DNA of 18,236 bases from Candidatus Aenigmatarchaeota archaeon (GTDB taxonomy: Archaea; Aenigmatarchaeota; Aenigmatarchaeia; Aenigmatarchaeales; JAHLMR01), in assembly GCA_018920255.1 (NCBI GenBank), contig JAHLMR010000011.1, forward strand, positions 1-18,236. The letters run 5' to 3'. Every line of letters begins with the position of its first letter. Position 1 is the first letter of the stretch. This document shows positions 1 through 15,410 of this stretch, in pieces. The notes beneath the pieces were generated by a model. That model was not told the origin of the DNA and made no database searches. It worked only from the letters and a program-made list of their open reading frames with translations. A program made the translations under genes and the position numbers.

Positions 1-1
1 A

Positions 2-553
2 TTCTCTTCCTGCTTCTTCTCCAGCAATTTTACATTCTTTACTTTCTGGGTCTTCCCAGCAACTAGAAGCAACATTATAAACATGATAACTTCCTACTAT
101 TAATAAGCTTATAAGAGAAACTAAAGCAACTGCAGTTGGATAAGTTAAAGGAATTCCAAGACCTGAACAAATTTCAACAGCAAGAGCTGCAACTAAAAGT
201 ATTATTACTGCAGAAATAGCTATTTTTATACCTAAATTTGTTAATGTTCCAACTGGATCTCTTTTTAAATCATCAATAAAGCTATTAATACCATTAATAA
301 TTCCATTACCAAAGCCAATTAATGAATTAATAATTCCTTTCCTTGTATTTTCATTTGAAAGTAATAAGCTTAAAATTACAAACAAAAACCCTCCTGGTAT
401 TATACTTGAAATGACTATTGAAAAAAGAGCCAAAAACAAATCCGAGACTCCAAAATCCGGATTAAAAGGTACTGCAAATCCGGGCAAAGAAAAGGATAGT
501 ATAAATAAGAAAATGAAAAGAAATTGGCGTTTGCCAAGCATTTTTGCCCCCAT
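2..553 (-). CDS. Exported multi-pass membrane protein, 5' part only (runs off left edge)
   Basis: Reading leftward from the ATG at 553 gives an open frame of 184 codons that is still open at the window edge. The first ~27 residues look like a signal peptide: a basic GKR stretch, a hydrophobic core, then a small-residue end at GFA. At least two further hydrophobic segments follow, at about residues 38-63 and 110-130, with a possible third near 137-155. A short soluble part contains two cysteines (SCWEDP, KECKI). An in-frame ATG at 541 is possible, but a TATA box centred 26.5 bases before 553 and the lack of a clear ribosome-binding site favour a leaderless start at 553. I do not recognise the family and infer no function beyond a membrane or cell-surface location. 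Confidence 0.7.
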   Translation of the reverse strand, partial: MGAKMLGKRQFLFIFLFILSFSLPGFAVPFNPDFGVSDLFLALFSIVISSIIPGGFLFVILSLLLSNENTRKGIINSLIGFGNGIINGINSFIDDLKRDPVGTLTNLGIKIAISAVIILLVAALAVEICSGLGIPLTYPTAVALVSLISLLIVGSYHVYNVASSCWEDPESKECKIAGEEAGRE

Positions 554-575
554 GATAAGTAATTTGATTTGCTGA

Positions 576-583
576 TATATAAA
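576..583 (-). promoter_or_regulatory. TATA box, promoter of the left-edge membrane protein gene
   Basis: The minus strand reads TTTATATA, an archaeal box A match, centred 26.5 bases before the ATG at 553. That places transcription start at or next to the start codon, so the mRNA should be leaderless. Confidence 0.6.
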
Positions 584-650
584 GATTTTGTAATGTTGAA
601 ATTAATGAAAGTAACAATAAAATTATTCTTTATTATTAAGAAATTAATTT

Positions 651-1463
651 TTAAACTTTTATTTCTCTTAATCTTTTTATTCTTTCTTCAATAGGAGGAT
701 GTGTACTAAATAAATTAATTATAAAATTACTGCTAAATGGATTTACTATCCATAAATGTGAGGTAGCATAATTTCCATTTATTGGATGTTTTTTAGAAAT
801 TTCAAAAATTTTTTCTAATGCAGAAGCTAATGCATTTGGTTTTTTTGAAATTAAAGCACCAGTATAATCTGCAGCATATTCTCTAGTTCTTGAAATAGCA
901 AGCTGTATAAGCATTGCAGCAAACGGTATAAATATAATTAATGGTAATAATAAAATATTGTTTCTGTTTCTATCACCGAAAGTTGAATACCATGCAAATT
1001 GAGCAAGATAAGAAATTGCACCTGCTATAGTTGCTGAAATTGTTGCAATTAATGTATCACGATTTTTTATGTGTGCTATTTCATGTGATAAAACTCCTTC
1101 TATTTCCTCTTCATTTAAAATATTTATAAGACCCCTTGTTACTGCAAGGGCTGAATTTTTTGGATTTCTTCCTGTTGCAAACGCATTAGGTACAGGTAAA
1201 TTTACAATATATAATTTTGGAATAGGTATTTTTGCTTCGTTTGCTAATTTTTTTACTATATTTTCAAGTTTTTTATCTTTGTATTCCTTTGCTCCATATA
1301 TGCTTAAAACTATTTTATCAGACCAAAAATAAGTAATAAAATTTAAAATGAATGCTAAGAAAAATGCTAATGAAAGACCAACCATTCCTCCTAAAATAAA
1401 TCCTATTCCCATAAACAATGCTGTAAGTAAACCTAATAAAAATGCTGTTTTTAATAATGACAT
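651..1463 (-). CDS. htpX: HtpX-type membrane zinc metalloprotease
   Basis: This is a 270-residue M48-family integral membrane protease, which in bacteria takes part in quality control of misfolded membrane proteins. The zinc site is visible as HEIAH (H127, E128, H131), with the third ligand expected at E195 in the conserved SRTREYAAD segment. The family signature PNAFATG is at residues 92-98. Two N-terminal hydrophobic segments (about 7-24 and 27-46) and two after the HEXXH (about 139-157 and 169-190) fit the four-helix HtpX layout. The gene lies 18 bases after the phosphohexomutase stop and has no Shine-Dalgarno sequence. A TTTAAAAA box centred 26.5 bases before its ATG suggests its own leaderless promoter rather than strict operon membership. 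The length is slightly short but complete for the family. Confidence 0.93.
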   Translation of the reverse strand: MSLLKTAFLLGLLTALFMGIGFILGGMVGLSLAFFLAFILNFITYFWSDKIVLSIYGAKEYKDKKLENIVKKLANEAKIPIPKLYIVNLPVPNAFATGRNPKNSALAVTRGLINILNEEEIEGVLSHEIAHIKNRDTLIATISATIAGAISYLAQFAWYSTFGDRNRNNILLLPLIIFIPFAAMLIQLAISRTREYAADYTGALISKKPNALASALEKIFEISKKHPINGNYATSHLWIVNPFSSNFIINLFSTHPPIEERIKRLREIKV

Positions 1464-1481
1464 AATTATAATTAAATATCT

Positions 1482-2783
1482 TTAGTTTTTAAATTTTTCT
1501 ATTAAACTTATTATTTCATTTGTAAATTCTTTTATTTTTGAAAAATTCTCTAACTTTCCACTTATAGAAATTCTTAGTATTGGTTCTGTATTAGAAAATC
1601 TTATAAGACAAGTGCTTAAATCATCAAAAATAAATTTAATTCCATCTAATTTTTCAGTTTTATATTTTTTAGAATATTCTTCAATAGTATTAATTATTTC
1701 TTTTTTATTATTCTCATTAATTTTAATTTTACAATTTTCAAAGAAAATTTTTGGATAGTCAGAATAAAGTTCACTTATTTTTTTATTTTCAAGAAATAAA
1801 ATATTTGAAATTTTAATAAATGTATAAAATGCATCCTCTAAATAATTACATTCTTTAAAATAAAAATGATTTGATCTTTCTGCACCAATATCAGCATTTT
1901 CTTGCTTAACTTTATTCAGCAATGTTCTTCCAACTGCAGTTTCTAATCCTACTATTTTTCTTTTTTTCAACTCTTCTTTAAAAAATTCTGAAAAGCTTAC
2001 TTCATATACGAATTTTTTTGGATTTAAATATTTTATAAAAATATAAGAAATTAATTCACCATCAATAATTTCTCCATTTTCATCTAAAAATACTATTCTA
2101 TCAGCATCACCATCAAAAGCAATTCCAAAATCTAATTTATTTTCTTTAATAACCTTACTTAATTCTTTTAAATTTTCTTTATTTGGTTCTGGCTCATGAC
2201 AAGGAAAATTTCCATCTATATTTTTATTTAAAATAATACAATTTTCATTTTTTATTAAATCATAAAATACTATTGAGCCAACTCCATTTGAAAAATCAAC
2301 TGCAAATTTCAAATTTTTAAAATTTGATTTTTCTTTTAAAAAGAATAAATGTTTATTTTTATAGTATGATCCATCTTCTAATTTTCCTTTTTCATTTAAA
2401 GAAATTTCTAAATTATCTATAATTTCATTTTCGTTTAAAATAATTAAATTTTTAAATTTATCATAAATTTTTAGTCCGTTATATTCTTTTGGATTATGAC
2501 TTGCTGTTACTTGTAAATGTAAATCAAAATTTCCATTTATCATCGCAAAATTAAATGTAGAAGTAGAAACTTCGCCTAAAAAACATACGTTAACTCCATA
2601 AAATAAAAAGGTATTTATTAAACTATTTGCAAGTGATTCACTTCCCATTCTTCCATCTCTTCCAATTAAAACTTTTTTCGGTTTAAATAATTTTATACAT
2701 GTTTTAGCTATTTTTGAAAAAATCTCTTCGTTAACTTCTTCAGGATATTTTCCTCTAATATCATAAGCTTTAAAAATTGACAT
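1482..2783 (-). CDS. Phosphohexomutase (phosphomannomutase / phosphoglucosamine mutase family)
   Basis: This 433-residue protein belongs to the alpha-D-phosphohexomutase superfamily, which interconverts hexose 6- and 1-phosphates through a phosphoserine. The active-site loop TASHNP (S95), the metal loop DGDADR (D224, D226, D228), the sugar-binding loop AERSNH (301-306) and the C-terminal phosphate loop SNTEP are all present, so it looks catalytically complete. Its place as fourth gene after glmS, an acetyltransferase and a GlmU-like gene suggests it isomerises GlcN-6-P or GlcNAc-6-P. However, SNTEP and the E-x-S-x-H-x-x-F loop resemble ManB/AlgC phosphomannomutases more than GlmM (usually GEQSGH and SGTEP), so mannose or dual specificity is possible. 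A GTGAT ribosome-binding site overlaps the stop of the preceding gene, 5 bases upstream. Confidence 0.88.
   Translation of the reverse strand: MSIFKAYDIRGKYPEEVNEEIFSKIAKTCIKLFKPKKVLIGRDGRMGSESLANSLINTFLFYGVNVCFLGEVSTSTFNFAMINGNFDLHLQVTASHNPKEYNGLKIYDKFKNLIILNENEIIDNLEISLNEKGKLEDGSYYKNKHLFFLKEKSNFKNLKFAVDFSNGVGSIVFYDLIKNENCIILNKNIDGNFPCHEPEPNKENLKELSKVIKENKLDFGIAFDGDADRIVFLDENGEIIDGELISYIFIKYLNPKKFVYEVSFSEFFKEELKKRKIVGLETAVGRTLLNKVKQENADIGAERSNHFYFKECNYLEDAFYTFIKISNILFLENKKISELYSDYPKIFFENCKIKINENNKKEIINTIEEYSKKYKTEKLDGIKFIFDDLSTCLIRFSNTEPILRISISGKLENFSKIKEFTNEIISLIEKFKN
1486..1493 (-). promoter_or_regulatory. Possible TATA box for htpX inside the 3' end of the upstream gene
   Basis: The minus strand reads TTTAAAAA, centred 26.5 bases before the htpX ATG. 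It overlaps the last codons of the phosphohexomutase gene. The spacing matches the other leaderless promoters in the window, but T/A runs are common here, so this is tentative. Confidence 0.4.
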
Positions 2784-2788
2784 TCATA

Positions 2789-3463
2789 TCACATTTTTCT
2801 AGCATTAATTAAAGCCTCTTCATTACCTATATCAGATCTTTTTCCCTTTAATGTATAAATTCTAAATTTTTTTATTTTATTATACTCTAAAATTGCATCT
2901 GTTAAATAATATTCTCCTGTTTTTTCATTAGGTTTTATTTTATCTAAAATTTTAAAAAAATCTTTTGTAATTTTAATAACTCCAACAAAAATTTTCCCCT
3001 TTCCTGTTTCAGTTTTTTCTTTAATTTCTTTTAAATATCCATTTTCTTCTATTATTTTTCCATACTTAGAAACATCATCAACTTCTTTAACACCTATAAT
3101 TAGTTCATCTTTTTTAAATTCTTCTAACGTATCTTCAAAATATTCATCAGCATATGTAATTAAAATATAATCATCAGTAATATATTTTGATGCTGTTTTA
3201 ACAGCAGATGCTGTACCATATTTATTTTCTTGAACTATGTAATTTACTCCTGGATGATATCTTTCTAAAAAGCCAATAATTTCTTCTTTTAAATATTTTA
3301 CTATAACAAAAATATTTTTATTGTCTATACCTAAAGAATTAAGCTTATCAATATGATGTGTTAATAATGTTTTTCCTTTAATAGTAAAAAGTGGTTTAGG
3401 TACTAAATTAGTATATGGTCTTAATCTTATTCCTTCACCTGCAGCTAAAATTATAGCTTGCAT
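2789..3463 (-). CDS. GlmU-like sugar-1-phosphate uridylyltransferase lacking the acetyltransferase domain
   Basis: This is a 224-residue single-domain nucleotidylyltransferase, probably joining UTP and GlcNAc-1-P to give UDP-GlcNAc. The start shows the nucleotide-binding motif LAAGEGIRLRP (from residue 5), followed by PKPL. The GTASAV motif contacts the base, and YADEY supplies a metal-binding Asp. The GEYYLTDAI segment near residues 179-187 is characteristic of GlmU pyrophosphorylase domains. GlmU normally continues into a left-handed beta-helix acetyltransferase of about 200 residues. Here the protein stops after the Rossmann-like domain. I chose the ATG at 3463 because GGTGA (3469-3473) sits 5 bases upstream, leaving one base after the preceding stop. 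Longer starts (3475, 3496) would overlap the acetyltransferase gene. The exact sugar is inferred from motifs and context. Confidence 0.85.
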   Translation of the reverse strand: MQAIILAAGEGIRLRPYTNLVPKPLFTIKGKTLLTHHIDKLNSLGIDNKNIFVIVKYLKEEIIGFLERYHPGVNYIVQENKYGTASAVKTASKYITDDYILITYADEYFEDTLEEFKKDELIIGVKEVDDVSKYGKIIEENGYLKEIKEKTETGKGKIFVGVIKITKDFFKILDKIKPNEKTGEYYLTDAILEYNKIKKFRIYTLKGKRSDIGNEEALINARKM

Positions 3464-3464
3464 T

Positions 3465-3797
3465 TTATTCACCATTAAAATCAATTCTAAATTCAAACCC
3501 CCATTTTTTAAAGCCTAATTTTTCATAAAGTTTATGAACGTTTTCTCTTGTTTCTCTACTTGTTGCAATTATTTTATAGCAACCTAAATTCTTTGCTAAT
3601 TCAATTGCTTTTTTTACTAATTCTGTTCCTATACCTTGACCTCGCATACTTTCATCAACAAACACATCTTCAAGAAGTGCATATGGATTTTTATGAAGTT
3701 CATTTCTTATTAGAAAAATAAAACATCTTCCAATTTCTTTCTTATCTTTTACTACAGAAATTTTATAATATTCTGAATTTCCTTTTTCTATATTCAT
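3465..3797 (-). CDS. Short GNAT N-acetyltransferase, candidate GNA1-like glucosamine-phosphate acetyltransferase
   Basis: This 110-residue GNAT-fold protein transfers acetyl from acetyl-CoA to an amine. The CoA-binding motif A is seen as RGQGIGTELV (about residues 52-61), after an LLEDVFVD strand. It is followed by GCYKII and by the LYEKLGF motif B. From memory, these segments parallel eukaryotic Gna1 (HIEDIAV, GQGLGKLL, GCYKII, FYEKCGF), which acetylates glucosamine-6-phosphate. Similar strings also occur in GNATs of other specificity. It sits between glmS and a GlmU-like gene that lacks its own acetyltransferase, which makes it the obvious candidate for the missing step. A near-perfect Shine-Dalgarno, GAGGTGAT (3801-3808), overlaps the glmS stop. 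It is shorter at the N-terminus than most GNATs (about 140-160 residues). Confidence 0.85.
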   Translation of the reverse strand: MNIEKGNSEYYKISVVKDKKEIGRCFIFLIRNELHKNPYALLEDVFVDESMRGQGIGTELVKKAIELAKNLGCYKIIATSRETRENVHKLYEKLGFKKWGFEFRIDFNGE

Positions 3798-3800
3798 TTA

Positions 3801-3808
3801 ATCACCTC
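3801..3808 (-). promoter_or_regulatory. Strong Shine-Dalgarno of the acetyltransferase gene, overlapping the glmS stop
   Basis: The minus strand reads GAGGTGAT 3 bases before the ATG at 3797, a nearly full match to the 16S rRNA 3' end. The glmS TGA stop (3807-3809) lies within it, so the two genes are probably translationally coupled. Confidence 0.75.
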
Positions 3809-5558
3809 ATAAAACAGTTACACTTTTAGCTAAGTTTCTTGGTCTATCTGGATTAAAGCCACGTAAAATAGCAAGTTGATATGCTAAAAGTTGCATTGGT
3901 ATTATTTGATAAATTAAATTTGATATTCCATCTTCTGGTACTTTTATCCAGATATCAAAAATTTCAGAATTTGTACTGCTTACTCCAATTATAAATGCCC
4001 CTCTACTTTTAAGCTCTAATGCATTAGAAATTATTTCTTTTTCTTTTCCTAAAAATACAATACATGGAGTTCCTTTTTCTATTAGTGCAATTGGTCCGTG
4101 CTTAATTTCTCCTCCTGGAAATGCTTCTGCATGAATATAAGAAATTTCTTTTATTTTTAATGCAGCCTCAAGTGATGTTACATAATTAATTCCTCTTCCA
4201 ATTAAAAAAATACTTTTTGAGTTTTTTAATTTTTCAGCAACCTTTTTAATATATTCGCGTCTTGATTCGGCTAAAAGTTCATAAACCTTATTTTTTATTT
4301 CATCTATATTTATAGAACTATCGTTTGAAAGAAGTTTATATATTAAAATAAAAATAATAAGTTCTGCAATATATGCTTTTGTTGAAGCAACACCTATTTC
4401 TGGACCAGCATTCATATATAAACAAATATCACTTTCTCTTTCTAGTGAACTTCCTTTTACATTTACAACTGAAAATATTTTACATCCTTTTTCCTTTGAA
4501 AATCTAATTGCATCTAAAACATCTGCTGTTTCTCCAGATTGAGATACTGCAATAACTATATCATCTTTTTTAAGAATATTTCCAAAATTTTTAAATTCTG
4601 ATGCAATAAAAACATGTGCTATTATTCCAAGTTTTGAAAAAAGATATTTTGCTGCAAGACATGCATGATAAGATGTGCCAGCAGAAACCATAAAAATTTC
4701 TTTTTTCTTAGAAATTTCAAAAACAAATTTATTTAATTTATTAATATCCTGTTTTGTTGCTTTTTCTATTACATCCTTTTGTTCTAAAATTTCTTTTATC
4801 ATATAATGATCAAAACTACCTTTTTCTATTGCAGAAAAATTTATTTCAATTTTTTCAATTTTTCTTTCAATTTTTCTTTTAAACAAATTTTCTATTTTAT
4901 ATTTATTTTTTTCTAAAACAACAAAATCATAATTTTTTAGAAATACTACATTATTTGTATATTTAATAAAAGCTGGAATATCGCTCGCTGCAAAATATCC
5001 ATGATCTGCAATTCCTATTACAAGAGGGGATTCATTTCTTATTGCAATTATCTTTTCTTCTTTATTATTTATAATTAACAAAGCAAAACTTCCTTTTAAT
5101 TCTTTAACTGCCTCCTTACAAGCATTTTCAAATTTTTTTTCTCTTTTCATATATTTTTCAATAAGGTGTGCAACTACTTCAGTATCAGTGCTGCTCTTAA
5201 AAACATGATTTTCTTTTTCAAGTGCTTCTTTTAACTCATTATAATTTTCTATAATTCCATTATGAACTATCGCTATGTTATTATTACAGTCAGTATGAGG
5301 ATGAGAATTTACTTCACTAACTTCTCCATGAGTTGCCCAACGAGTATGTCCTATAACTATATTAGACTTTAATTCTAAAAAATTTAATTTTGAATTAACA
5401 GAATCTATATTTCCAACTCCTTTTTTTATAATTAAATTTCCATTTAAAATATATGCCATTCCAACAGAATCATAACCTCTATATTCTAAATGTTTTAAAC
5501 CATCTAAAACAATTTCTGATGCATTTTTATTTCCTATATATCCTATAATTCCACACAT
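3807..5558 (-). CDS. glmS: Glutamine--fructose-6-phosphate aminotransferase (isomerizing)
   Basis: GlmS converts fructose-6-phosphate and glutamine to glucosamine-6-phosphate, the committed step of amino-sugar synthesis. The 583-residue protein begins MCGIIGYIG, so Cys2 is the N-terminal glutaminase nucleophile. RWATHGEV and the HNGIIENY segment are typical of the class II amidotransferase domain. Two SIS sugar-isomerase domains follow: one with SAGTSYHA and SQSGET (about residues 285-415), the other from about 455 to the end. The C-terminal tail NPDRPRNLAKSVTVL is the expected GlmS ending that channels ammonia. It is slightly shorter than E. coli GlmS (609) but complete. It is the first gene of a four-gene operon and faces a divergent regulator-like gene across 98 bases, with a TATA box 26.5 bases before its start. 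Confidence 0.97.
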   Translation of the reverse strand: MCGIIGYIGNKNASEIVLDGLKHLEYRGYDSVGMAYILNGNLIIKKGVGNIDSVNSKLNFLELKSNIVIGHTRWATHGEVSEVNSHPHTDCNNNIAIVHNGIIENYNELKEALEKENHVFKSSTDTEVVAHLIEKYMKREKKFENACKEAVKELKGSFALLIINNKEEKIIAIRNESPLVIGIADHGYFAASDIPAFIKYTNNVVFLKNYDFVVLEKNKYKIENLFKRKIERKIEKIEINFSAIEKGSFDHYMIKEILEQKDVIEKATKQDINKLNKFVFEISKKKEIFMVSAGTSYHACLAAKYLFSKLGIIAHVFIASEFKNFGNILKKDDIVIAVSQSGETADVLDAIRFSKEKGCKIFSVVNVKGSSLERESDICLYMNAGPEIGVASTKAYIAELIIFILIYKLLSNDSSINIDEIKNKVYELLAESRREYIKKVAEKLKNSKSIFLIGRGINYVTSLEAALKIKEISYIHAEAFPGGEIKHGPIALIEKGTPCIVFLGKEKEIISNALELKSRGAFIIGVSSTNSEIFDIWIKVPEDGISNLIYQIIPMQLLAYQLAILRGFNPDRPRNLAKSVTVL

Positions 5559-5572
5559 AAGAGAATAGATAG

Positions 5573-5588
5573 TATAAATATATTTATA
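5573..5588. promoter_or_regulatory. 16-bp perfect palindrome containing the glmS TATA box
   Basis: The sequence TATAAATATATTTATA is a perfect inverted repeat. Its minus-strand half TATAAATA (5581-5588) is centred 26.5 bases before the glmS ATG and is the likely box A, giving a leaderless mRNA. The palindrome could be an operator for the divergent winged-helix protein, but an A/T-only palindrome can arise by chance in DNA this AT-rich. Confidence 0.5.
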
Positions 5589-5626
5589 AATATTATTATA
5601 ATGGTTTTTTTAATATTATAAAAAAA

Positions 5627-5634
5627 TTTATAAA
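5627..5634 (+). promoter_or_regulatory. TATA box of the winged-helix/S-layer-like gene
   Basis: TTTATAAA, preceded by a purine run (AAAAAA) that could act as the BRE, is centred 26.5 bases before the ATG at 5657. There is no Shine-Dalgarno in between, so the transcript is probably leaderless. Confidence 0.6.
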
Positions 5635-5656
5635 GGTTTAATGGTAATAAATAATT

Positions 5657-6607
5657 ATGGTTAAAAAATTTTTAGTAGAAAAAATAAAAAATGAATATTT
5701 TATGAAAGATATAGAAATTTTTGAAAATCCTAAACATATTTCTCCGCTTACAAATAAAATAGCATGGGAAATTCTTTTAAAATTAAATCAAAAACCATAT
5801 TATCCAAAAGAATTAGCAAAAGAAATGAAAATAGATGAACAAAAAATTTATTATTATATTCATAAATTAAAAGAAGCTGAATTGATAGAAATAATTAAGG
5901 AAGAAAAAATTAGAGGGGGGACATGTAAATATTTTATGGCAAAATCTCTTGCATTTGGAGTTGAAATTCCTAAAGCAAATGCACATAAAATTAAATTAGA
6001 AAGAAGTTTTGAAAGGGTTAAAGAATTTTTTTATGAATTCATAAAAAATGGTACTTTTAATGGATATATTGTAGTTGGCTCTCCAGTTCAACATGGCCCA
6101 TACTTAACTATTGCAAGAGATGGACATTTTGCATCACAGCTTACTATGTTTCTTGGTTCTATTTGTGAAATACCAAAAAAATTTATAATAAAACTAGATA
6201 CTGAAATAAAATCTGAACGTATTGAAAAAGAAAACCTTATTTTAATAGGAGGGCCTGTAACTAATATAATTTCTGATGAAATAAATAAACAGTTAAAAAT
6301 AAAAATTGTTTGGGATAATTCTTGGAAAATTTATTCAGAATTCTCTAAAAAGAAATATACAGAGCATGATTATGGAATTATAGCTAAAATAAAAAATCCA
6401 TGGGATAATACAAAAAACATCATAATTTTAGAAGGACTTACTTTAGAGGGAACTAGAGGGTGTATAATATCAGTTGTAAATGGTTTTGAAAAAATTTTTA
6501 AAAAATATGAAAAAGGTAAAAATTATATTATTTTAATAAAAGGACTTGATAAAGATAGTGATGGGAAAGTAGATGATTTTGAAATAATTGAAAATTATGT
6601 TTTTTGA
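5657..6607 (+). CDS. Winged-helix protein with S-layer-like C-terminal region and EF-hand-type loop
   Basis: This is a 316-residue protein without signal peptide or membrane segment. Residues ~30-105 form a predicted ArsR-like winged helix (ELAKEMKIDEQKIYYYIHKLKEAELI), ending in a KYFMAKS beta-wing. The remaining ~200 residues recall the C-terminal domain of archaeal S-layer proteins: a GGPVTN turn (198-203) after a hydrophobic strand, an EGTRGC segment, and a terminal acidic loop. That loop (298-309, DKDSDGKVDDFE) has the Asp/Asp/Asp/Gly/Glu spacing of a calcium-binding EF-hand. The S-layer match is from memory of family motifs and is moderate. It probably acts in the cytoplasm as a DNA-binding regulator, perhaps of the divergent glmS operon. 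That role is inferred from gene position only. It converges on the next gene with a 13-base overlap of coding ends. Confidence 0.75.
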   Translation: MVKKFLVEKIKNEYFMKDIEIFENPKHISPLTNKIAWEILLKLNQKPYYPKELAKEMKIDEQKIYYYIHKLKEAELIEIIKEEKIRGGTCKYFMAKSLAFGVEIPKANAHKIKLERSFERVKEFFYEFIKNGTFNGYIVVGSPVQHGPYLTIARDGHFASQLTMFLGSICEIPKKFIIKLDTEIKSERIEKENLILIGGPVTNIISDEINKQLKIKIVWDNSWKIYSEFSKKKYTEHDYGIIAKIKNPWDNTKNIIILEGLTLEGTRGCIISVVNGFEKIFKKYEKGKNYIILIKGLDKDSDGKVDDFEIIENYVF

Positions 6608-6942
6608 GTTATTCTATCTAAATATTCATTAAAAGAGTTATATTCTTTTATCTCTTTGTCTTTAATTTCAATAACTTTTATTTTAAATAAATTATCTTGA
6701 GGATATTCTTTTAATTCATCTGATTTTATTCTTAAATTTCCTCCATTATATTCTACATAATTACCATTTTCTTCTACTTCAAAACCAATACTACAGCCTC
6801 TATAGATTGTAGTAATATTATTGTCAAAATCTATTTTATCTAAATTATCTTTATAAATAATTAAAATTTCTTCTTTTGAATCTCTTTTTATTTTTTCTAA
6901 TTCAGTATTAGTTGGGTTAATAATAATTAAAATATTTATCAC
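6595..6942 (-). CDS. Hypothetical protein, 115 residues
   Basis: I do not recognise this protein. It begins with a hydrophobic beta-like strand (INILIIINP), has one cysteine (RGCSIGFEVEE), and is otherwise acidic and lysine-rich with alternating short strands. There is no signal peptide or membrane helix. The start is a GTG at 6942 with AAGG and GGTGAT just upstream or overlapping, so the exact start is uncertain by a few codons. It overlaps the upstream phosphoesterase gene by 26 bases in the same direction, which points to co-transcription and translational coupling. Its 3' end overlaps the convergent winged-helix gene by 13 bases. A role linked to the phosphoesterase is possible but not shown. 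Confidence 0.7.
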   Translation of the reverse strand: MINILIIINPTNTELEKIKRDSKEEILIIYKDNLDKIDFDNNITTIYRGCSIGFEVEENGNYVEYNGGNLRIKSDELKEYPQDNLFKIKVIEIKDKEIKEYNSFNEYLDRITQKT

Positions 6943-7552
6943 CTACCTTTTCATTTATAAGAGTTTTTTGTTTATTATTTTTGTCCGTTGAAGTAAATTC
7001 AATATGACCTGTTTCATCTATTTTCATATTGTACTTAAAACCTTTTATATTTATTTTATTATTCCAAGGATATACATCAGCATAAGAATCTAAATTTATT
7101 TTTAAAGCATTATTATTTTTATAATTAAATTTTTCAATTGATGTTTTTTTATGTGTATGACCACTTAAAGATATTAAATTACTATTTTTAATATCTAAGG
7201 ATTCTATAACATAAAAGATTTGTTTTTTTGTAGGTGGCTCATGCGTTAACATTAAATAAATATTATCATAAATACTAGTAATTACACAACTTTCTGGAGT
7301 TTTCCTTAATTCTGCAGTTTCAGGTAATTTTAAGATAGTATATTCATCTTTAGATAAATTTGTAATAGGATAAGAAAAGTCATCGTGATTACCGGTTATA
7401 AGCAAATATTTATCATAATTTCCAATTATTTTATTTGCTTCCCCTTTACCACAATAATCTCCCAAACCAAAAACTATATCACCATTTAAACTTCCTTGAA
7501 ATGCTGAATGTGTATCAGTTATAACTCCTATTTCCAATGCTTCTGTTGACAT
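6917..7552 (-). CDS. Calcineurin-like metallophosphoesterase (YfcE/MJ0936 type)
   Basis: This 211-residue protein has the two-metal phosphoesterase motifs in order: DTH (D13, H15), GD (G31-D32), GNHD (54-57), THE near residue 99, and GHTH further on. This small single-domain architecture matches the YfcE/MJ0936 family, which hydrolyses phosphodiesters or phosphomonoesters in vitro. The natural substrate is unknown. The C-terminal ~60 residues (from about GFKYNMKID) form an extra beta-rich, charged tail. I chose the ATG at 7552 because the motif-bearing strand starts a few residues later and a TATA box lies 26.5 bases upstream. A longer start at 7696 would put 48 unlikely residues across the divergent promoter and into the neighbouring gene. 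It is followed by a coupled 115-residue unknown protein. Confidence 0.88.
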   Translation of the reverse strand: MSTEALEIGVITDTHSAFQGSLNGDIVFGLGDYCGKGEANKIIGNYDKYLLITGNHDDFSYPITNLSKDEYTILKLPETAELRKTPESCVITSIYDNIYLMLTHEPPTKKQIFYVIESLDIKNSNLISLSGHTHKKTSIEKFNYKNNNALKINLDSYADVYPWNNKINIKGFKYNMKIDETGHIEFTSTDKNNKQKTLINEKVGDKYFNYY

Positions 7553-7560
7553 AATTATTA

Positions 7561-7606
7561 TATGGTAGTTATAATATTTAAATATTACTATCTTATAGTA
7601 GTTATA
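7561..7606. repeat. Direct repeat pair with hairpin in the divergent promoter region
   Basis: TATGGTAGTTATA (7561-7573) recurs as TATAGTAGTTATA (7594-7606), with one mismatch in 13 bases and a 33-base period, about three helical turns. Between and into the second copy lies the inverted repeat TACTAT-CTT-ATAGTA (7586-7600). The block lies between two divergent promoters and overlaps the phosphoesterase TATA box, so it may be a regulator-binding site. Confidence 0.45.
7575..7582 (-). promoter_or_regulatory. TATA box of the phosphoesterase gene
   Basis: The minus strand reads TTTAAATA, centred 26.5 bases before the ATG at 7552. No ribosome-binding site follows, so a leaderless transcript is likely. 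Confidence 0.6.
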
Positions 7607-7611
7607 TTTAA

Positions 7612-7619
7612 TTTTTAAG
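7612..7619 (+). promoter_or_regulatory. Probable TATA-like box of the AK6-type kinase gene
   Basis: TTTTTAAG is centred 26.5 bases before the ATG at 7642. It is a weak box A match, but the same octamer sits at the same distance before kae1 (15202-15209), which supports it. Confidence 0.45.
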
Positions 7620-7641
7620 CTTTTCAAACAATTATAAAAGT

Positions 7642-8124
7642 ATGAAAATTTATGCAATAACAGGTACGCCTGGTACAGGAAAAAGCAAAGTAGCAAAATT
7701 ATTATCTAAAAAATTTGCAGTATTAAATCTAAATAAAGAGATTAAAAGAAGAAAATTATACAAGAAATATGATAATAAGAGAAAATGTTTTATTTTTGAT
7801 GAGAAAAAAACATTAAAATTTGTTAAAGAATGGATTAAAAAACAAAAAAATGATATTTTTATAGAATCTCATGTTTCACATCTTTTAAATTTAAAATATG
7901 ATTTAATTTTTGTATTTAGGTGCAATCCAGAAGTATTATACAAAAGATTAAAAAGAAGGAAGTGGAATAAAGAAAAGGTACAAGAAAATTTAGAAGCAGA
8001 AATTTTTGGAATAATAGAGGAGGAAGCAAGAAGAAAAGGTAAGACTTATATTATAGATACAACAAATAAAAGTCCTGAAAGGATAGCAGGTGAAATGCTT
8101 AAATATATTAAAAAGGAAAGTTGA
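7642..8124 (+). CDS. AK6/Fap7-type adenylate kinase (P-loop NTPase)
   Basis: This 160-residue P-loop kinase resembles the archaeal/eukaryotic AK6 (Fap7, hCINAP) family, which combines adenylate kinase or ATPase activity with a role in small ribosomal subunit maturation. The Walker A motif GTPGTGKS is at residues 8-15, directly after the first strand. ESHVSHLL matches the AMP/Walker-B-like region, FRCNPEVLYKRLKRRKW the lid, and IIDTTNKSPE the C-terminal family signature. The length is slightly below the usual ~170-180 residues. It overlaps the end of an alternative TTG start of the next gene (aIF2-beta), so the two are almost certainly one operon. That fits a shared role in ribosome biogenesis and translation. 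Confidence 0.88.
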   Translation: MKIYAITGTPGTGKSKVAKLLSKKFAVLNLNKEIKRRKLYKKYDNKRKCFIFDEKKTLKFVKEWIKKQKNDIFIESHVSHLLNLKYDLIFVFRCNPEVLYKRLKRRKWNKEKVQENLEAEIFGIIEEEARRKGKTYIIDTTNKSPERIAGEMLKYIKKES

Positions 8125-8129
8125 AAAAT

Positions 8130-8543
8130 ATGGACAATGAATATTTAGAACTATTAGAAAGATTATATCAAAAACTTCCTAAAAAGTCTGGAACTGGAGA
8201 AAGATTTGAACCTCCAAAGGTAGAAATAAGTTATATAGGAAATCAAACTATTATAAAAAATTTTATTTTTATAGCAGATTCATTAAGAAGGGAGCCACAA
8301 CATCTTCTTAAATTTTTTACAAAAGAAACCGCAGCACCAGGAAATATTTCTGGGAAACAAGCTATATTTCAAAGTAAAATACCTGCGCACATTGTAAATT
8401 CAAAATTAGAAGCATATATAAAAGAATTTGTTCTTTGTAAAGAATGTAAAAGACCTGATACAAAAATAATTAAAAAAGATAAAAAATTATTTTCATTAAA
8501 ATGTGAAGCTTGTGGTGCTGAAACATCAATAAGAAGTATTTAA
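8130..8543 (+). CDS. Translation initiation factor aIF2 subunit beta
   Basis: aIF2-beta is a subunit of the heterotrimer that delivers initiator Met-tRNA to the small ribosomal subunit. The 137-residue protein has the N-terminal helix that binds aIF2-gamma (YLELLERLYQKLP), a central alpha-beta domain (KNFIFIADSLRREPQHLLKF), and a C-terminal zinc ribbon with C103, C106, C125 and C128. Length and domain order are normal. I prefer the ATG at 8130, about 10 bases after a GGAAAG stretch. An in-frame TTG at 8121 would form a TTGA overlap with the upstream kinase stop and add three residues. It follows the AK6-type gene directly and its stop codon lies inside the TATA box of the next gene. Confidence 0.95.
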   Translation: MDNEYLELLERLYQKLPKKSGTGERFEPPKVEISYIGNQTIIKNFIFIADSLRREPQHLLKFFTKETAAPGNISGKQAIFQSKIPAHIVNSKLEAYIKEFVLCKECKRPDTKIIKKDKKLFSLKCEACGAETSIRSI

Positions 8544-8546
8544 ATA
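8539..8546 (+). promoter_or_regulatory. TATA box of the pilin-like gene, overlapping the aIF2-beta stop
   Basis: TTTAAATA is centred 26.5 bases before the ATG at 8569 and contains the TAA stop of the aIF2-beta gene. No ribosome-binding site is present before the ATG, so a separate leaderless transcript is likely. Confidence 0.6.
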
Positions 8547-8568
8547 ATAAAATTTATAATTTGTTTTT

Positions 8569-8925
8569 ATGAAAGGACAGTTTTTTATAATAGCTGGAGT
8601 ATTAATAGTATCATTAATTTCTCTTATATTTCAATACTTCTATGATTTTACTAAAATAAACCCATCTTTATATGGAATCTTTTATGAAAGAAATTATATT
8701 TATGAAATTAAAGAAATGTATATAAATGTTATAAATTTAAGTACTTGTGAAAGCTTAGAAGAAGAATTAAAAGTTCTTGAAAATGAATTATTCTTAGATA
8801 TGATTTCACGGGGAATTTTATTTAACGGTACACATTCTGGAAATTGCCCTGGCACAATAACAATAAGATTTAGTTTAATTTCTGAAAAATTTAATTCAAA
8901 TACTTCTTTTAGTTTTACAAAATAA
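8569..8925 (+). CDS. Small membrane-anchored protein with pilin-like N-terminus
   Basis: This 118-residue protein starts MKGQFFIIAG and continues into one long hydrophobic segment (about residues 5-22) with no other membrane helix. The basic-Gly-Gln start followed directly by the hydrophobic stretch resembles archaeal type III (class III) prepilin signal sequences, cut by a prepilin peptidase before the Gln. The remaining ~90 residues should lie outside the cell. They contain two cysteines (TCES and GNCPG) that could pair, and an N-glycosylation sequon (NGT). I do not recognise a family. It has its own predicted promoter and lies between aIF2-beta and an ion-pump gene without obvious functional link. 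Confidence 0.75.
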   Translation: MKGQFFIIAGVLIVSLISLIFQYFYDFTKINPSLYGIFYERNYIYEIKEMYINVINLSTCESLEEELKVLENELFLDMISRGILFNGTHSGNCPGTITIRFSLISEKFNSNTSFSFTK

Positions 8926-8928
8926 ATA

Positions 8929-8936
8929 TTTAATAA
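8929..8936 (+). promoter_or_regulatory. Possible TATA box of the P-type ATPase gene
   Basis: TTTAATAA lies about 28 bases before the ATG at 8961, in an A/T-only gap. No Shine-Dalgarno is seen before the ATG. The box is weakly defined because the whole gap is A/T. Confidence 0.35.
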
Positions 8937-8960
8937 TTAAATAAATTAAATAAATTTTAT

Positions 8961-11501
8961 ATGCTTTTAACTGAAATACCTATAAGAGAAATTATATCTG
9001 CATCAGAGGATGAAATATTAGTAAAATTTAATACATCTAAATCAGGACTTTCTTCTTCATATGCAAAAGATTTATTAAAAATTTATGGAAAAAATGAAAT
9101 AGAAAAGAAAAAGAGACGTGCAGCAATAATTGAATTTATATTAAAAATTAAAAATCCACTTATTTTAATATTAATATTTGCTGCTATAATTTCTGGTTTT
9201 TTGGGAGAAGTAACAAATGCATTAATAATAATTATTATTGTTCTAATTAGTGCAATATTAGAATTTGTTCAAGAATATAAAGCAGAAAATGCTGTTGAAA
9301 AATTAATTAAAAGGGTTGAAATTTCTGTTGAAGTTTTAAGAGATGGTAAAAAACAAGAAATTAAGTCTAGTGAATTAGTACCAGGTGATATAATATTACT
9401 TTCTGCTGGAGATATAATACCAGCAGATATTAGAGTAATAGAAGCAAAAGATTTTTTTGTTGATCAATCTGCTATTACAGGAGAATCTTTTCCAGTAGAA
9501 AAATTTTCTAAAAAAATTAATGAGAATAATATTGACAAAACATCAATGAAAAATTATCTTTTTATGGGAACTTCTGTTATAAGCGGTTATGCTACTGGTG
9601 TTGTAGTAAAAACAGGAAAATTTACAGAATATGGTCAAATAATAAAATATGCAACAGAAAATAAACTTGAAACAGAGTTTGAAAGAGAAATTAAAAAAAT
9701 TGGATATATGACAATGCAAATAACATTGTTTCTTGTATTATTTATATTTTTTGTAAATAGTTTATTAAAACAAAACTTTTTAAATTCATTTCTATTTGCA
9801 GTAGCAATTGCTGTCGGTATCATACCTGAACTTTTACCTGTAATAGTTTCTTTAAATTTATCAAGAGGAGCAATTGAAATGGCAAAAAAGGATGTTATAA
9901 TTAAACGTCTTGAATCTATTCATAATTTTGGAAGCATGGATGTTCTTTGCTGCGATAAAACCGGAACATTAACAGAAAATAAAATTAAAATGATTATGCA
10001 TATTGATATTAATGGAAAAAATAATGAAAAAGTTTTTCTTTATTCATATATTAATAGCTATAATCAAACAGGAATTAAAAATCCTTTAGATGAAGCTATA
10101 TTAAATCATGAAAATATTAATGTAACGAATTATAAAAAAATCGATGAAATTCCATTTGATTTTTTAAGAAAAAGGGTATCGATTATTGTAGAAAGGAATA
10201 ATAGTTATATTCTAATAACAAAAGGTGCACCAGAAGAAATAAATAAAATATGCCTTTATTATGAAGATTTAGGAAGTGTTAAAAAAATTACAGAAGAAAT
10301 CAAAGATAAAATAAAAAATAAATTTAATGAATTAAGTGCCCAAGGTTATAGAGTTTTATCTATTGCTTATAAAAAAGATATAGAAAAAAAGAATACCTAT
10401 TCTAAAGAAGATGAAAATAATTTGATATTTTTAGGTTTTATTGCATTTTTAGACCCACCGAAAGAATCAACAAAAGAATCTATAAGAAAACTTCAAAATT
10501 CTGGTATAGAAATAAAAATATTAACTGGAGATAATGATTTAATTACAAAGAAAATTTGTGAAGATCTTAATTTTAAAGTTAAAGGAATTATTTTAGGTTC
10601 AGAAATAGATAATTTAACTGATGATGTTTTAGCAAAAGCTGTAGAAGAAAATAACGTTTTTGCAAGAGTTTCTCCTATACAAAAAAATAGAATTATTAAT
10701 ATGCTAAAAAGAAATGGTCATGTTGTTGGATTTTTAGGTGATGGAATAAATGATGTTCCATCGATGAAGGTTGCTGATGTTAGTATATCTGTTGATAATG
10801 CTGTAGAAATTGCTAAAGATACTGCAGACATTATTCTTATTAGAAAAGATTTAACCATACTTCATAATGGTATAGTTGAAGGTAGAAAAACATTTGGAAA
10901 TACAATGAAATACATTTTAATGAGTTTTAGCTCAAATTTTGGAAATATGATAAGTGCTTCATTAGCATCCTTGTTTTTAAAATTTTTGCCAATGCTTCCA
11001 ATTCAAATTCTTTTAAATAATTTAATTTATGATTTTTCAGAAGCAACAATTCCTTATGATAATGTAGATAAAGAATATTTACAAAAACCTAAAAAAATTA
11101 ATATAAAATTCATTAAAAGATTTATGATAATATTTGGATCTATTAGTTCTATTTTTGATATTTTAACATTTTGTGTTTTAATTTTTATTTTTAATGCTTC
11201 TGAATCATTATTCCAAACAGCTTGGTTTGTAGAATCACTTTGTACTCAAGCACTCGTTATATTTGTAATAAGAACAAAAAAAGTACCTTTTATAAAAAGT
11301 AAACCAAATATTCTTCTCACATTAACTACTTTAGGTGTTGTAATTTTAGCATTAATAATTCCATATACAATACTTTCATTATACTTTAGATTTGTAGAAC
11401 TTCCTTTTGTATTTTTAGAAATTTTATTTATTTTTATAATTTCTTATTTACTAATCGTTGAAGTTGTAAAAATATGGTTTTATAAAAAATATAACGAATA
11501 A
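8961..11501 (+). CDS. mgtA: P3B-type P-type ATPase, probably Mg2+ importer (MgtA/MgtB family)
   Basis: This 846-residue cation pump has all P-type ATPase hallmarks: the actuator motif TGES (about residue 172), the phosphorylation motif DKTGTLT with D332, an ATP-binding domain with KGAPEE, the TGDN motif (about 521) and GDGIND (about 592). About ten membrane helices are expected, six of them in the C-terminal part. The M4 motif PELLPVIVSLNLSRGA, the stretch ESIHNFGSMDVLCCDKTGT and the NPLDEAIL segment resemble MgtA/MgtB rather than Ca2+ (P2) or heavy-metal (P1B) pumps, which is the basis for the magnesium assignment. Family knowledge says these pumps import Mg2+ under low magnesium. No Mg2+-sensing leader is visible, since the upstream gap is only 35 bases. 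Its stop abuts the convergent ogg2 stop. Confidence 0.9.
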   Translation: MLLTEIPIREIISASEDEILVKFNTSKSGLSSSYAKDLLKIYGKNEIEKKKRRAAIIEFILKIKNPLILILIFAAIISGFLGEVTNALIIIIIVLISAILEFVQEYKAENAVEKLIKRVEISVEVLRDGKKQEIKSSELVPGDIILLSAGDIIPADIRVIEAKDFFVDQSAITGESFPVEKFSKKINENNIDKTSMKNYLFMGTSVISGYATGVVVKTGKFTEYGQIIKYATENKLETEFEREIKKIGYMTMQITLFLVLFIFFVNSLLKQNFLNSFLFAVAIAVGIIPELLPVIVSLNLSRGAIEMAKKDVIIKRLESIHNFGSMDVLCCDKTGTLTENKIKMIMHIDINGKNNEKVFLYSYINSYNQTGIKNPLDEAILNHENINVTNYKKIDEIPFDFLRKRVSIIVERNNSYILITKGAPEEINKICLYYEDLGSVKKITEEIKDKIKNKFNELSAQGYRVLSIAYKKDIEKKNTYSKEDENNLIFLGFIAFLDPPKESTKESIRKLQNSGIEIKILTGDNDLITKKICEDLNFKVKGIILGSEIDNLTDDVLAKAVEENNVFARVSPIQKNRIINMLKRNGHVVGFLGDGINDVPSMKVADVSISVDNAVEIAKDTADIILIRKDLTILHNGIVEGRKTFGNTMKYILMSFSSNFGNMISASLASLFLKFLPMLPIQILLNNLIYDFSEATIPYDNVDKEYLQKPKKINIKFIKRFMIIFGSISSIFDILTFCVLIFIFNASESLFQTAWFVESLCTQALVIFVIRTKKVPFIKSKPNILLTLTTLGVVILALIIPYTILSLYFRFVELPFVFLEILFIFIISYLLIVEVVKIWFYKKYNE

Positions 11502-11515
11502 TTATTTTTCACATA
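11491..11515. terminator. Abutting convergent gene ends with T-runs on both strands
   Basis: The plus-strand TAA (11499-11501) and the minus-strand TAA (11502-11504) are adjacent and form TAATTA. Plus-strand transcripts meet TTATTTTTC just after the stop. Minus-strand transcripts meet a T6 run just after theirs. Archaeal termination on T-runs would therefore take place inside the opposing gene's 3' end. Confidence 0.35.
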
Positions 11516-12128
11516 TTTTTCCGCTGTCAAGATAAAACAGATAAATATCAAGTTCAGCTTGTGATATTTTTATTTTATTAGCAATTTCTTTAAGTTTATT
11601 TTCTATTTCAACGTATTTTTTCATAGAAAGTGATTTTGGAATGTCGTTTATTATTTTGTATTTTTTTAAAATTTTTAGAACATGTCTATCGAGGATTGCA
11701 AAATTTCTAAAACCCAAATTTCTAAGAAAATGTGATGCCTCTTTCATTCCAATTCCATTAATATTTTTTACAAGCCATTCTCTTAATTTCATTTCATTTT
11801 TTTCTTGTTTTATAATTTTATAAATTTCTGATTTTCTTTTTCTTGCCTCAACTATATATTTAGCTCTTTTATTATAAAATCTCCCATGATTTTCTTTAAT
11901 TTTTTTAGATAATTCACTTTCTGAAAGTGTTAGAAAACCAGTATTAATTTTATTCCAAACTTTTTGTGCATTTTTAATAGAATTATTTGCAACAAGTATA
12001 CAAAAACATAATTCGAGAAAGATTTCATTTTCTTTTAAATTTGAGCTCTTTGAAAATGAATTTAATTTTTTCTTTATTTTATCTCCAATTAAAGGAATTA
12101 ATTTCTTAATATCATATATTAGATTCAT
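11502..12128 (-). CDS. Archaeal 8-oxoguanine DNA glycosylase/AP lyase, Ogg2 type
   Basis: Ogg2 removes 8-oxoguanine from DNA and nicks the abasic site. The 208-residue protein has the helix-hairpin-helix motif NGIGMKEASHFLRNLG with the expected Schiff-base lysine at K129. The catalytic aspartate is D147 in AILDRHVL. These residue numbers agree with the archaeal Ogg2 enzymes as I recall them when translation starts at the ATG at 12128. A TTG at 12137 would overlap the upstream stop as TTGA and add three residues. ELCFCILVAN and GRFYNKRAKYIVEAR are further family signatures, and the C-terminal ending SGKICEK is typical. It directly follows an RPA-like single-strand-binding protein gene, a plausible DNA-repair pair. 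Confidence 0.92.
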   Translation of the reverse strand: MNLIYDIKKLIPLIGDKIKKKLNSFSKSSNLKENEIFLELCFCILVANNSIKNAQKVWNKINTGFLTLSESELSKKIKENHGRFYNKRAKYIVEARKRKSEIYKIIKQEKNEMKLREWLVKNINGIGMKEASHFLRNLGFRNFAILDRHVLKILKKYKIINDIPKSLSMKKYVEIENKLKEIANKIKISQAELDIYLFYLDSGKICEK

Positions 12129-12133
12129 AAAAA

Positions 12134-12871
12134 TCAAAGTTTCTTTATTCTTCCAGCATGAGGTTCATAACATATAGCTTTTTCTAAAAGTTCAGCAACT
12201 ATTTTATCTACAATTTTTTCAGGTAAACCTGATTTAAAAATTAGTTCTGAATATTCCACTCCGTTTCCTGTATCATTTTTTTCAATAATATCTAAAATTA
12301 TTTCTTTTATTGTTTCTTCATCTAAAGGCTTTTCCTCATAAGACTCTAAAGCTTCTAAAATACTATCAATATCTTCTGGTTTTATTCCTGCACGTTCTCC
12401 TAATTTTTTTAATTCAGAAACATCAGCAGTTGTTTTTTGAAGTTCCTTTATTTTTTCTATTTTACTTTTTTGTTCGTTATAAATTTCCTCTAATTCTAAA
12501 AGTCTTAAGTTTTCCCAATTTGGATCGACTTTACATATAGCTTCTATTAATATATAAATTTCATCTTCATATTTTCTAACTTTTCCAATAATATCTACAA
12601 CATCTCCTTCTGTAACTTTATCTAAAATTTCAACATCTTTAAAAACCTTTGCTCTTATTGTCTCAAAACCATCATCAAGAACTATTACACCATAGCTTTT
12701 ATCATCTTTTATAAATTTTTCAACAATTGTACCCAAAACCCTTATTCTTATTAATTTTCTTCCATAATTTGTAAGAACATAACTACTTTCAAAATTTTCT
12801 TTATGTACAAATTTTCCATTAACAATTTCATCGATTCTTGCCTTTAATGCTGTTATTCTTTGATTTTCCAA
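12134..12871 (-). CDS. RPA-like OB-fold single-stranded DNA-binding protein
   Basis: This 245-residue protein has one OB-fold (about residues 38-112: LIRIRVLGTIVEKF, YGVIVLDDGFETIRAKVF, VTEGDVVDIIGKV). A coiled linker, a small helical bundle and a C-terminal winged helix (about 192-245, ending CYEPHAGRIKKL) follow. OB plus winged helix is the layout of RPA32/RPA2-type subunits that bind single-stranded DNA and recruit partners. I infer a role in replication and repair, supported by the downstream Ogg2 gene. The start is a TTG (12869-12871) placed 6 bases after a GGTG ribosome-binding site. The next in-frame ATG would cut into the protein. Partner RPA subunits are not in this window. Confidence 0.82.
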   Translation of the reverse strand: MENQRITALKARIDEIVNGKFVHKENFESSYVLTNYGRKLIRIRVLGTIVEKFIKDDKSYGVIVLDDGFETIRAKVFKDVEILDKVTEGDVVDIIGKVRKYEDEIYILIEAICKVDPNWENLRLLELEEIYNEQKSKIEKIKELQKTTADVSELKKLGERAGIKPEDIDSILEALESYEEKPLDEETIKEIILDIIEKNDTGNGVEYSELIFKSGLPEKIVDKIVAELLEKAICYEPHAGRIKKL

Positions 12872-12884
12872 AATTTACACCTTG

Positions 12885-13343
12885 CTATTTTTCCTTTTGT
12901 ACTATAAGTTTAGCTGTTTCTATATCATACTTCCAATCTGCAGGAAGTTCCTTTTTCTTTATATAATATTTAACTAAACGTCTTATTTTACTTTCCAATA
13001 AAATTAAACCTCTTTTAGCAGAATAGTCTTTTTTATTTTTAGCAAGGTGTTCGCTTACTTTTACAGCATGTTTAAGAAGATTATAAAGATCTTCTGGTAT
13101 TGATTTATTAATCTTGTTTTCTTTAAGTATTTGTAATATACTTTTTCCAGTTATACTTTTAACAGATGGGATTCCATATTGATCTCTAAGCACAAGCCCA
13201 ATTTTTGAAGCACTTAAACCATCCTTTCTAAGTTTTACAACAAGCCTTATCACTTCTTCTGGGCTATATTCTACCCAATCCGCTGGAATTAATGGTTTTT
13301 TACTTCCTGACTTTCCTTTTTTTCTAGCATACATTCTTGCCAT
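12885..13343 (-). CDS. rps15: Small subunit ribosomal protein uS15 (archaeal S15P)
   Basis: This is a 152-residue archaeal/eukaryotic-type uS15. The N-terminal extension [17 protein letters not shown] and the [13 protein letters not shown] segment are characteristic, as is the [28 protein letters not shown] region. The conserved helical rRNA-binding domain follows ([38 protein letters not shown]). The ATG at 13343 follows GGTGA (13349-13353) by 5 bases and gives the usual family start. A GTG at 13355 would add four residues and lies within that ribosome-binding site. It lies downstream of a small membrane protein gene and upstream of the RPA-like gene in one run. Confidence 0.97.
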
Positions 13344-13355
13344 AATTTTCACCAC

Positions 13356-13583
13356 TCATTTTTCTTTTAATTCTAAATATTGTGCAAATAAATATATAAT
13401 TATTCCTATAAAAAATATAAAAGATCCTATAGACATTAAAATTGAAAAGCCTTTAAAAAATGCACCAAAAAAAACTCCCATACACCATAAAAATGATGAA
13501 AATATGAAAACTAACAAAGATACTCTTTCTATTTTTTTAGCTTTATCTTCTGTTTCTTTTATCCATTTTATTGGGTTAAACAT
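13356..13583 (-). CDS. Small two-helix membrane protein
   Basis: This is a 75-residue protein with a charged amphipathic N-terminus (NPIKWIKETEDKAKKIER), two hydrophobic helices (about residues 22-44 and 47-69) and a short charged C-terminus (ELKEK). Both ends are probably cytoplasmic. I know no family with certainty. It starts one base after the Bud32 stop, with an AAGGGAA ribosome-binding site overlapping that stop, and it ends just before uS15. It is therefore embedded in the operon and is very likely a real gene. Confidence 0.72.
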   Translation of the reverse strand: MFNPIKWIKETEDKAKKIERVSLLVFIFSSFLWCMGVFFGAFFKGFSILMSIGSFIFFIGIIIYLFAQYLELKEK

Positions 13584-13584
13584 A

Positions 13585-15179: not shown

Positions 15180-15201
15180 ATATAAAAATTTAAATAAAAT
15201 C

Positions 15202-15209
15202 CTTAAAAA
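15202..15209 (-). promoter_or_regulatory. Possible TATA-like box of kae1
   Basis: The minus strand reads TTTTTAAG, centred 26.5 bases before the kae1 ATG in the 33-base gap after eS31. The same octamer at the same spacing precedes the AK6-type gene. It may be an internal promoter separating KEOPS from ribosomal protein transcription. Confidence 0.45.
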
Positions 15210-15212
15210 GAT

Positions 15213-15410
15213 TTATTTTTTAAAAATTTCAGAATATTTACATTTTCCACATGTTAATCTATTTGAATGAATTGCTAAAGCAGTCCCAACTCCACATCTT
15301 GGGCACCATCTCCCTTGAAATACTGCTCTATCATCTTTTATTTTATATTTTTTCCAAATTTGAACAACTTTATGCTTTGATTTACTTTTTGGTTTTTTTC
15401 CTTCAGCCAT
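15213..15410 (-). CDS. rps27ae: Small subunit ribosomal protein eS31 (S27ae), zinc ribbon
   Basis: This 65-residue protein is the archaeal equivalent of the C-terminal part of eukaryotic ubiquitin-eS31 fusions, without ubiquitin. It has a basic N-terminal extension (KKPKSKSKHK), VVQIWKKYKI, and a zinc ribbon with C36, C39, C54 and C57 (CPRCG and CGKCKYSEIF). All four ligands are present. A GTGAT ribosome-binding site lies about 6 bases before the ATG. It follows eS24 by 44 bases, the order seen in many archaea (from memory). Confidence 0.96.
   Translation of the reverse strand: MAEGKKPKSKSKHKVVQIWKKYKIKDDRAVFQGRWCPRCGVGTALAIHSNRLTCGKCKYSEIFKK

Follow-up and report, generated by a model that had tools for sequence, protein, structure and literature searches.

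UDP-N-acetylglucosamine (UDP-GlcNAc) feeds N-glycosylation and surface glycans. The described systems closest to the locus reported here are the bifunctional GlmU, which carries a left-handed beta-helix acetyltransferase domain, and the eukaryotic acetyltransferase Gna1 (glucosamine-6-phosphate N-acetyltransferase, EC 2.3.1.4), a dimer with a shared active site and a GNAT fold. In Caenorhabditis elegans Gna1, E104 and D105 bind the 3- and 4-hydroxyls of the sugar, K136 the 6-phosphate and Y149 the thiolate, and the active-site cysteine (C141), described as invariant across the Gna1 family, is not catalytic in that enzyme (PMC3413214). A missing GlmU, or a GlmU with a missing C-terminus, has been treated as loss of the pathway (PMC7725333). 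When a genome lacks a complete GlmU, the tendency is to conclude that the organism cannot make UDP-GlcNAc. Here we describe a four-gene operon of Candidatus Aenigmatarchaeota archaeon in which a short GNAT protein may stand in for the GlmU acetyltransferase domain. It lies on contig JAHLMR010000011.1 of assembly GCA_018920255.1, and the window is the whole stretch analysed (positions 1 to 18,236; 18,236 nucleotides).

The ORF (open reading frame) list and the sequence give four intact ORFs on the minus strand in the order glmS, GNAT, nucleotidylyltransferase, mutase. From glmS onwards, the intergenic gaps are 9, 1 and 5 bases, and GGTGA-type sites overlap or abut the stop codon of the preceding gene. 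An earlier reading of the sequence alone (the original prediction) had proposed an operon with short gaps and ribosome-binding sites at the stop codons, and both features are borne out. The first gene, glmS (3807-5558), encodes a glutamine--fructose-6-phosphate aminotransferase of 583 aa that passes the curated cut-off of TIGR01135 (681 bits against 418). The putative stand-in for the GlmU acetyltransferase domain is a 110-aa GNAT (3465-3797; PF00583, E=9e-18). It is followed by a GlmU-type sugar-1-phosphate nucleotidylyltransferase of 224 aa (2789-3463; Arch_glmU, NTP_transferase) whose ATG at 3463 comes directly after the GNAT stop; the TTG start at 3496 in the mechanical ORF call falls inside the GNAT gene and is not needed. 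The best NCBIfam match of this protein, Arch_glmU, covers only positions 1-225 of 393 and, at 153 bits, is below the cut-off of 292 for a bifunctional GlmU (TIGR01173 / TIGR03992). The beta-helix half is missing, just as the original prediction had it. The last gene (1482-2783) encodes a phosphohexomutase of archaeal GlmM type (433 aa; TIGR03990, PGM_PMM_I). Arch_GlmM scores 299 bits, under its cut-off of 439, yet is the top-scoring of all families, and an AGM1-like identity was rejected on that ground. The mutase keeps the phosphoserine loop TASHNP, the metal loop DGDADR and the Glu and His of the sugar loop, which reads GAERSNH (ERSNH) here and ends in SGH or NGH in most relatives in the aligned loops.

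Our preferred interpretation, which we rate somewhat above an even chance, is that the operon encodes a complete de novo UDP-GlcNAc pathway from which the GlmU beta-helix half has been lost and in which the 110-aa GNAT acts instead, most likely on glucosamine-6-phosphate (GlcN-6-P). GlmS would make GlcN-6-P, and the GNAT would acetylate it to N-acetylglucosamine-6-phosphate (GlcNAc-6-P), as Gna1 does. The GlmM-type mutase would convert GlcNAc-6-P to N-acetylglucosamine-1-phosphate (GlcNAc-1-P), to which the truncated GlmU would add UMP from UTP. We infer that the mutase and the nucleotidylyltransferase accept the acetylated forms of the sugar.

The rest of the genome is consistent with this proposal. 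The assembly has 552 kb in 25 contigs, of which the window is one, and is 94.6% complete. The beta-helix models searched were Hexapep (PF00132) and Arch_glmU; at E<=1, Hexapep matches nothing anywhere in the genome, and all 14 control genomes were positive. A bifunctional GlmU elsewhere, named beforehand as a refuting observation, was thus not found with these models. NTP_transferase and the hexose-phosphate mutase domain PGM_PMM_I each occur in one copy, the operon gene. The operon GNAT is likewise the one free-standing GNAT, the other match being a 451-aa Elp3-like protein with a weak GNAT tail. Since the genome sequence shows no Hexapep protein, one nucleotidylyltransferase, one mutase and one free GNAT, no candidate other than the operon GNAT is evident for the acetylation. 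The genome also encodes STT3/AglB, a plausible user of activated sugars; a match to the ALG7-type GlcNAc-phosphotransferase model PF00953 was not found in it.

The GNAT belongs to an unnamed family whose members, at 40-69% identity, occur in DPANN archaea, Candidate Phyla Radiation (CPR) bacteria, some cyanobacteria, proteobacteria and Nitrospirota, and it reaches the cut-off of no NCBIfam family. Most of the 57 members in the alignment have a length of ~110-120 aa. E43, C73, Y74, K75, T79, S80, R81, Y91 and G100 are present in every one of them, and D44 is kept in 53. In the sequence alignment, E43, D44, K75 and Y91 match E98, D99, K130 and Y143 of yeast Gna1. As these positions are the counterparts of C. 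elegans E104, D105, K136 and Y149, we read them as putative GlcN-6-P-binding and catalytic residues. Pfam, a structure model (pLDDT, the predicted local distance difference test score, 94.5) and Foldseek confirm a GNAT fold with the acetyl-CoA motif. The model has strands at 9-17, 20-30 and 39-47, a helix at 56-70, a strand at 75-79, a helix at 85-93 and two short strands. The C-terminal MRLDL/FRIDF pattern is shared with the Trypanosoma brucei protein 3fb3, which we take to be T. brucei Gna1 (the Protein Data Bank label is N-acetyltransferase). A distant copy in Aenigmatarchaeota (L034/L202), outside the 57, lacks the Glu/Asp pair, and its genome has no recognised GlmS. Another member (L033 10973-11290, genome G023) has an in-frame stop near its N-terminus, which may reflect gene decay, a start site further downstream or a fault in the assembly.

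Together with the position of related genes beside glmS in other lineages (see below), the retained Gna1 residues and the lack of another candidate support the proposal of the original prediction that a GNAT replaces the usual acetylation step; taken as a whole, that prediction is partly supported. That the GNAT acetylates an amino-sugar phosphate of some kind is, in our view, probable. Given such an activity, GlcN-6-P is the probable substrate, held with a little less assurance, since the invariant Lys and the other Gna1-like positions favour acetylation before the mutase step. The GlmM-type mutase and the GlmU-type nucleotidylyltransferase by themselves do not tell the order of steps. An alternative is that the GNAT acetylates glucosamine-1-phosphate (GlcN-1-P) after the mutase, which would keep the bacterial and archaeal order and swap only the class of the acetylating enzyme. 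The mutase is indeed of archaeal GlmM type, and the nucleotidylyltransferase corresponds to the N-terminal half of GlmU, whose usual partner domain makes GlcNAc-1-P. Moreover, genome G016, from the same taxonomic order, carries a GlmS-mutase-nucleotidylyltransferase-beta-helix cluster (GlmS-PGM-NTase-LbH; L102 3222-7628) in which the nucleotidylyltransferase and the beta-helix are separate, adjacent genes. GlmU can evidently be split in this way, which makes it plausible that the gene for its second half was replaced afterwards, and one can picture a straightforward exchange of this final gene. Against this, the Lys at the position of the 6-phosphate contact of Gna1 is invariant in the family, which better fits a 6-phosphate substrate, and we regard acetylation of GlcN-1-P as rather unlikely.

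The GNAT family is also found beside glmS in other genomes: glmS lies within 8 kb of a family member in 12 of the loci found. If each of 57 loci had a 2% chance of such linkage, at least 12 linked loci would be expected with P ~1e-9, a value that assumes independence, which related CPR genomes do not have. On a family tree built on 110 columns, with most forks unresolved, the glmS-linkage label changes six times (bootstrap 6-8), and the starred branches force at least two changes; a single origin of the linkage is unlikely. The window clusters there with Nanoclepta minutus and the Aenigmatarchaeote KUA_Bin01, beside two CPR rows. In both of these archaea (L136 and L137) the GNAT gene is directly upstream of glmS, and KUA_Bin01 has, on another contig, a 234-aa nucleotidylyltransferase without a beta-helix next to a glmS end. 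Two details of these loci stand apart. In N. minutus, GlmS is split into glutaminase and isomerase genes with a 260-aa NAD-binding-like ORF between them (L136 8326-10806), and in KUA_Bin01 the GNAT shares one open frame with an upstream archease (PF01951; L137 4799-5485), either a fusion or a missed start.

Among bacteria, the GNAT gene lies 8 bases downstream of glmS in locus L184, and six CPR loci (L147, L148, L178, L185, L190 and L200) have the order GlmS-GlmR-GNAT. Two genes separate GlmS from GlmR in the CPR loci L142 and L173. In L142 the GNAT gene overlaps by 4 bases the start of a 243-aa nucleotidylyltransferase without a beta-helix, much as in the window. A GlmU-like nucleotidylyltransferase without a beta-helix stands beside most CPR GlmS-GlmR-GNAT clusters and is otherwise encoded elsewhere. 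In Bacillus and Listeria, GlmR stimulates GlmS and is a uridyltransferase that makes UDP-GlcNAc, and acetyltransferase activity of the Listeria protein was ruled out in vitro (PMC13046274). With GlmR unable to acetylate in vitro, a neighbouring gene for an acetyltransferase would be fitting. SucC and SucD genes follow the GNAT in L147, L148, L185, L190 and L200, with a citrate synthase-like gene in three of these loci. Class I aminoacyl-tRNA synthetase-like genes of mixed kinds recur no more than 8 kb from family members, chiefly those not near glmS (L136, L144, L152, L154, L155, L180, L182, L189, L191, L193 and L194).

A full archaeal-type GlmU was found in none of 15 genomes with a family member, and in 7 of these 15 no protein matched Hexapep at E<=0.01. 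Within the class of the window, the family profile retrieved only the window's own GNAT from glmS-centred and other loci of relatives, indicating that GNAT-glmS linkage is rare there. The idea that the class conserves the order of the four genes was rejected, as the order was not found among the loci of class relatives. Related arrangements do occur in the second Aenigmatarchaeote, in N. minutus and in CPR bacteria, and the arrangement is thus not confined to this archaeon. In G049, an archaeal operon (L105 4123-10215) reads GlmS, GNAT, a HAD+CofD/GlmR fusion, a nucleotidylyltransferase without a beta-helix and the mutase; its GNAT has 158 aa and is not detected by the family profile, and the genome has other Hexapep proteins. 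In the archaeon G037, glmS and a nucleotidylyltransferase without a beta-helix flank a gene resembling CofD/YvcK (GlmR) (L103 6866-7783). In G066, glmS is directly followed by the gene for a mutase of 650 aa whose C-terminal extension resembles a HAD phosphatase (L118 5922-7874).

Several observations weigh against the proposed pathway, and some of them bear on the class of the enzyme. Ser80, present in all 57 members, occupies the position of the Gna1 Cys. Asp106 stands in the column of the phosphate-binding Arg (C. elegans R164), with Arg104 two residues earlier, an R-x-D pattern also seen in T. brucei 3fb3. The protein aligns to yeast Gna1 from about residue 60, and the region before beta2 is absent. 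As these three tested Gna1 features (N-terminal region, Cys and Arg) are missing, we do not class the GNAT as a Gna1 on its sequence, although it probably works like one. The top match in a family-profile search of the Protein Data Bank is 2dxq (61.5 bits), a GNAT of unknown function that partly shares the conserved residues; 3fb3 and then yeast Gna1 follow. VIA-align gave Z 11.8-13.8 over the top 50 matches, with no Gna1 entry among them, and Foldseek lists Gna1 of yeast, T. brucei and plants amid other GNATs, at E 2e-6 to 1e-5, so that the fold comparison of the model does not single out Gna1. The mutase, for its part, is not of AGM1 type. What is eukaryote-like in the route of the original prediction is the acetylating enzyme only, the partners being an archaeal GlmM-type mutase and a truncated archaeal GlmU rather than AGM1 and UAP1. 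The distribution of the family is also imperfect. For most family loci, the DNA examined contains no glmS, a full bacterial GlmU occurs in one of 34 genomes with a family member (the 4-Mb bacterium G120), and several CPR genomes encode a nucleotidylyltransferase of 366-402 aa with part of the beta-helix. The Aenigmatarchaeote G052, from the class of the window, has both a 58%-identical family member and a GlmU-like protein with a beta-helix, which means that the family is not strictly tied to beta-helix loss; GlmS was not found in G052 at the threshold used.

Such exceptions would suit a GNAT with another job, for example acetylation of protein N-termini or small amines, in a cell that makes UDP-glucosamine, takes GlcNAc from a host or has an unrecognised acetyltransferase. 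The GNAT fold is generic, the family is also present at loci apart from glmS and in genomes that encode a GlmU-like beta-helix protein, and the operon copy, as the only free GNAT in the genome, could substitute for RimI/Ard1. Many DPANN archaea rely on hosts. Against this stand the tight operon and the repeated linkage of the family to glmS, GlmR and a GlmU without a beta-helix across DPANN and CPR. A RimI/Ard1 identity was itself rejected, the RimI model TIGR01575 scoring 33 bits against a cut-off of 86. We consider an unrelated function improbable, and acetylation within UDP-GlcNAc synthesis the better account of the GNAT.

Upstream of glmS, an AT-rich region of 98 bp (5559-5656) with a TATA-like sequence likely holds promoters. 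It separates glmS from a divergent gene on the plus strand (5657-6607) that encodes an ArsR-type helix-turn-helix (HTH) domain and an S-layer outer domain (PF01022, PF05124). The product is a candidate regulator, as similar genes are divergent beside glmS in relatives. ArsR-type HTH/S-layer fusions were seen in L096 (5028-5963), L097 (5060-6004), L103 (9755-10702), L104 (8698-9621), L105 (10376-11302), L109 (3101-4045), L111 (719-1546) and L136 (7027-7881). In most of these relatives the gene and glmS are divergently oriented, and in L136 the gene lies beside the GNAT; PF05124 was identified in the two members scanned. The protein seems to be a regulator whose link to glmS is conserved.

The operon varies an established pathway in a way that appears new, and the broader distribution in DPANN and CPR is of greater interest than the single locus. 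The chances are about even that in both groups the GlmU acetyltransferase domain has a non-orthologous substitute in the ~110-aa GNAT family, and that some of the smallest prokaryotes thereby follow the eukaryotic order of steps, in genomes otherwise scored as lacking the pathway. We found no report of a GNAT replacing GlmU in DPANN or CPR, most subscription journals lying outside the literature search. If the proposal is correct, a recognisable substitute would alter how self-sufficient DPANN and CPR organisms are predicted to be. An unnamed family of minimal GNATs would gain a function across two domains of life, and the step and that of eukaryotic Gna1 would exemplify either a parallel or a shared origin.

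Among known systems, eukaryotic Gna1 (yeast 1i1d, T. brucei 3fb3/3i3g) provides the best profile matches of known function and shares with the window protein the GNAT fold, the E/D/K/Y positions and the GCYK motif. Unlike Gna1, whose chains have about 150-190 aa, the window GNAT has 110 aa, with Ser for Cys and Asp for Arg, and its operon includes no AGM1 or UAP1 partners. The Agrobacterium protein 2dxq has the IENV and CYK motifs of the window GNAT and differs from it in being full-length (150 aa). The operon resembles bifunctional GlmU and Arch_glmU (ST0452 type) in its nucleotidylyltransferase half and in pathway position, and departs from them in having a GNAT instead of the left-handed beta-helix acetyltransferase domain. 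With the CPR GlmS-GlmR-GNAT clusters, which unlike the window operon include a CofD-like GlmR and in which a mutase was not seen, the window shares the same GNAT family together with glmS.

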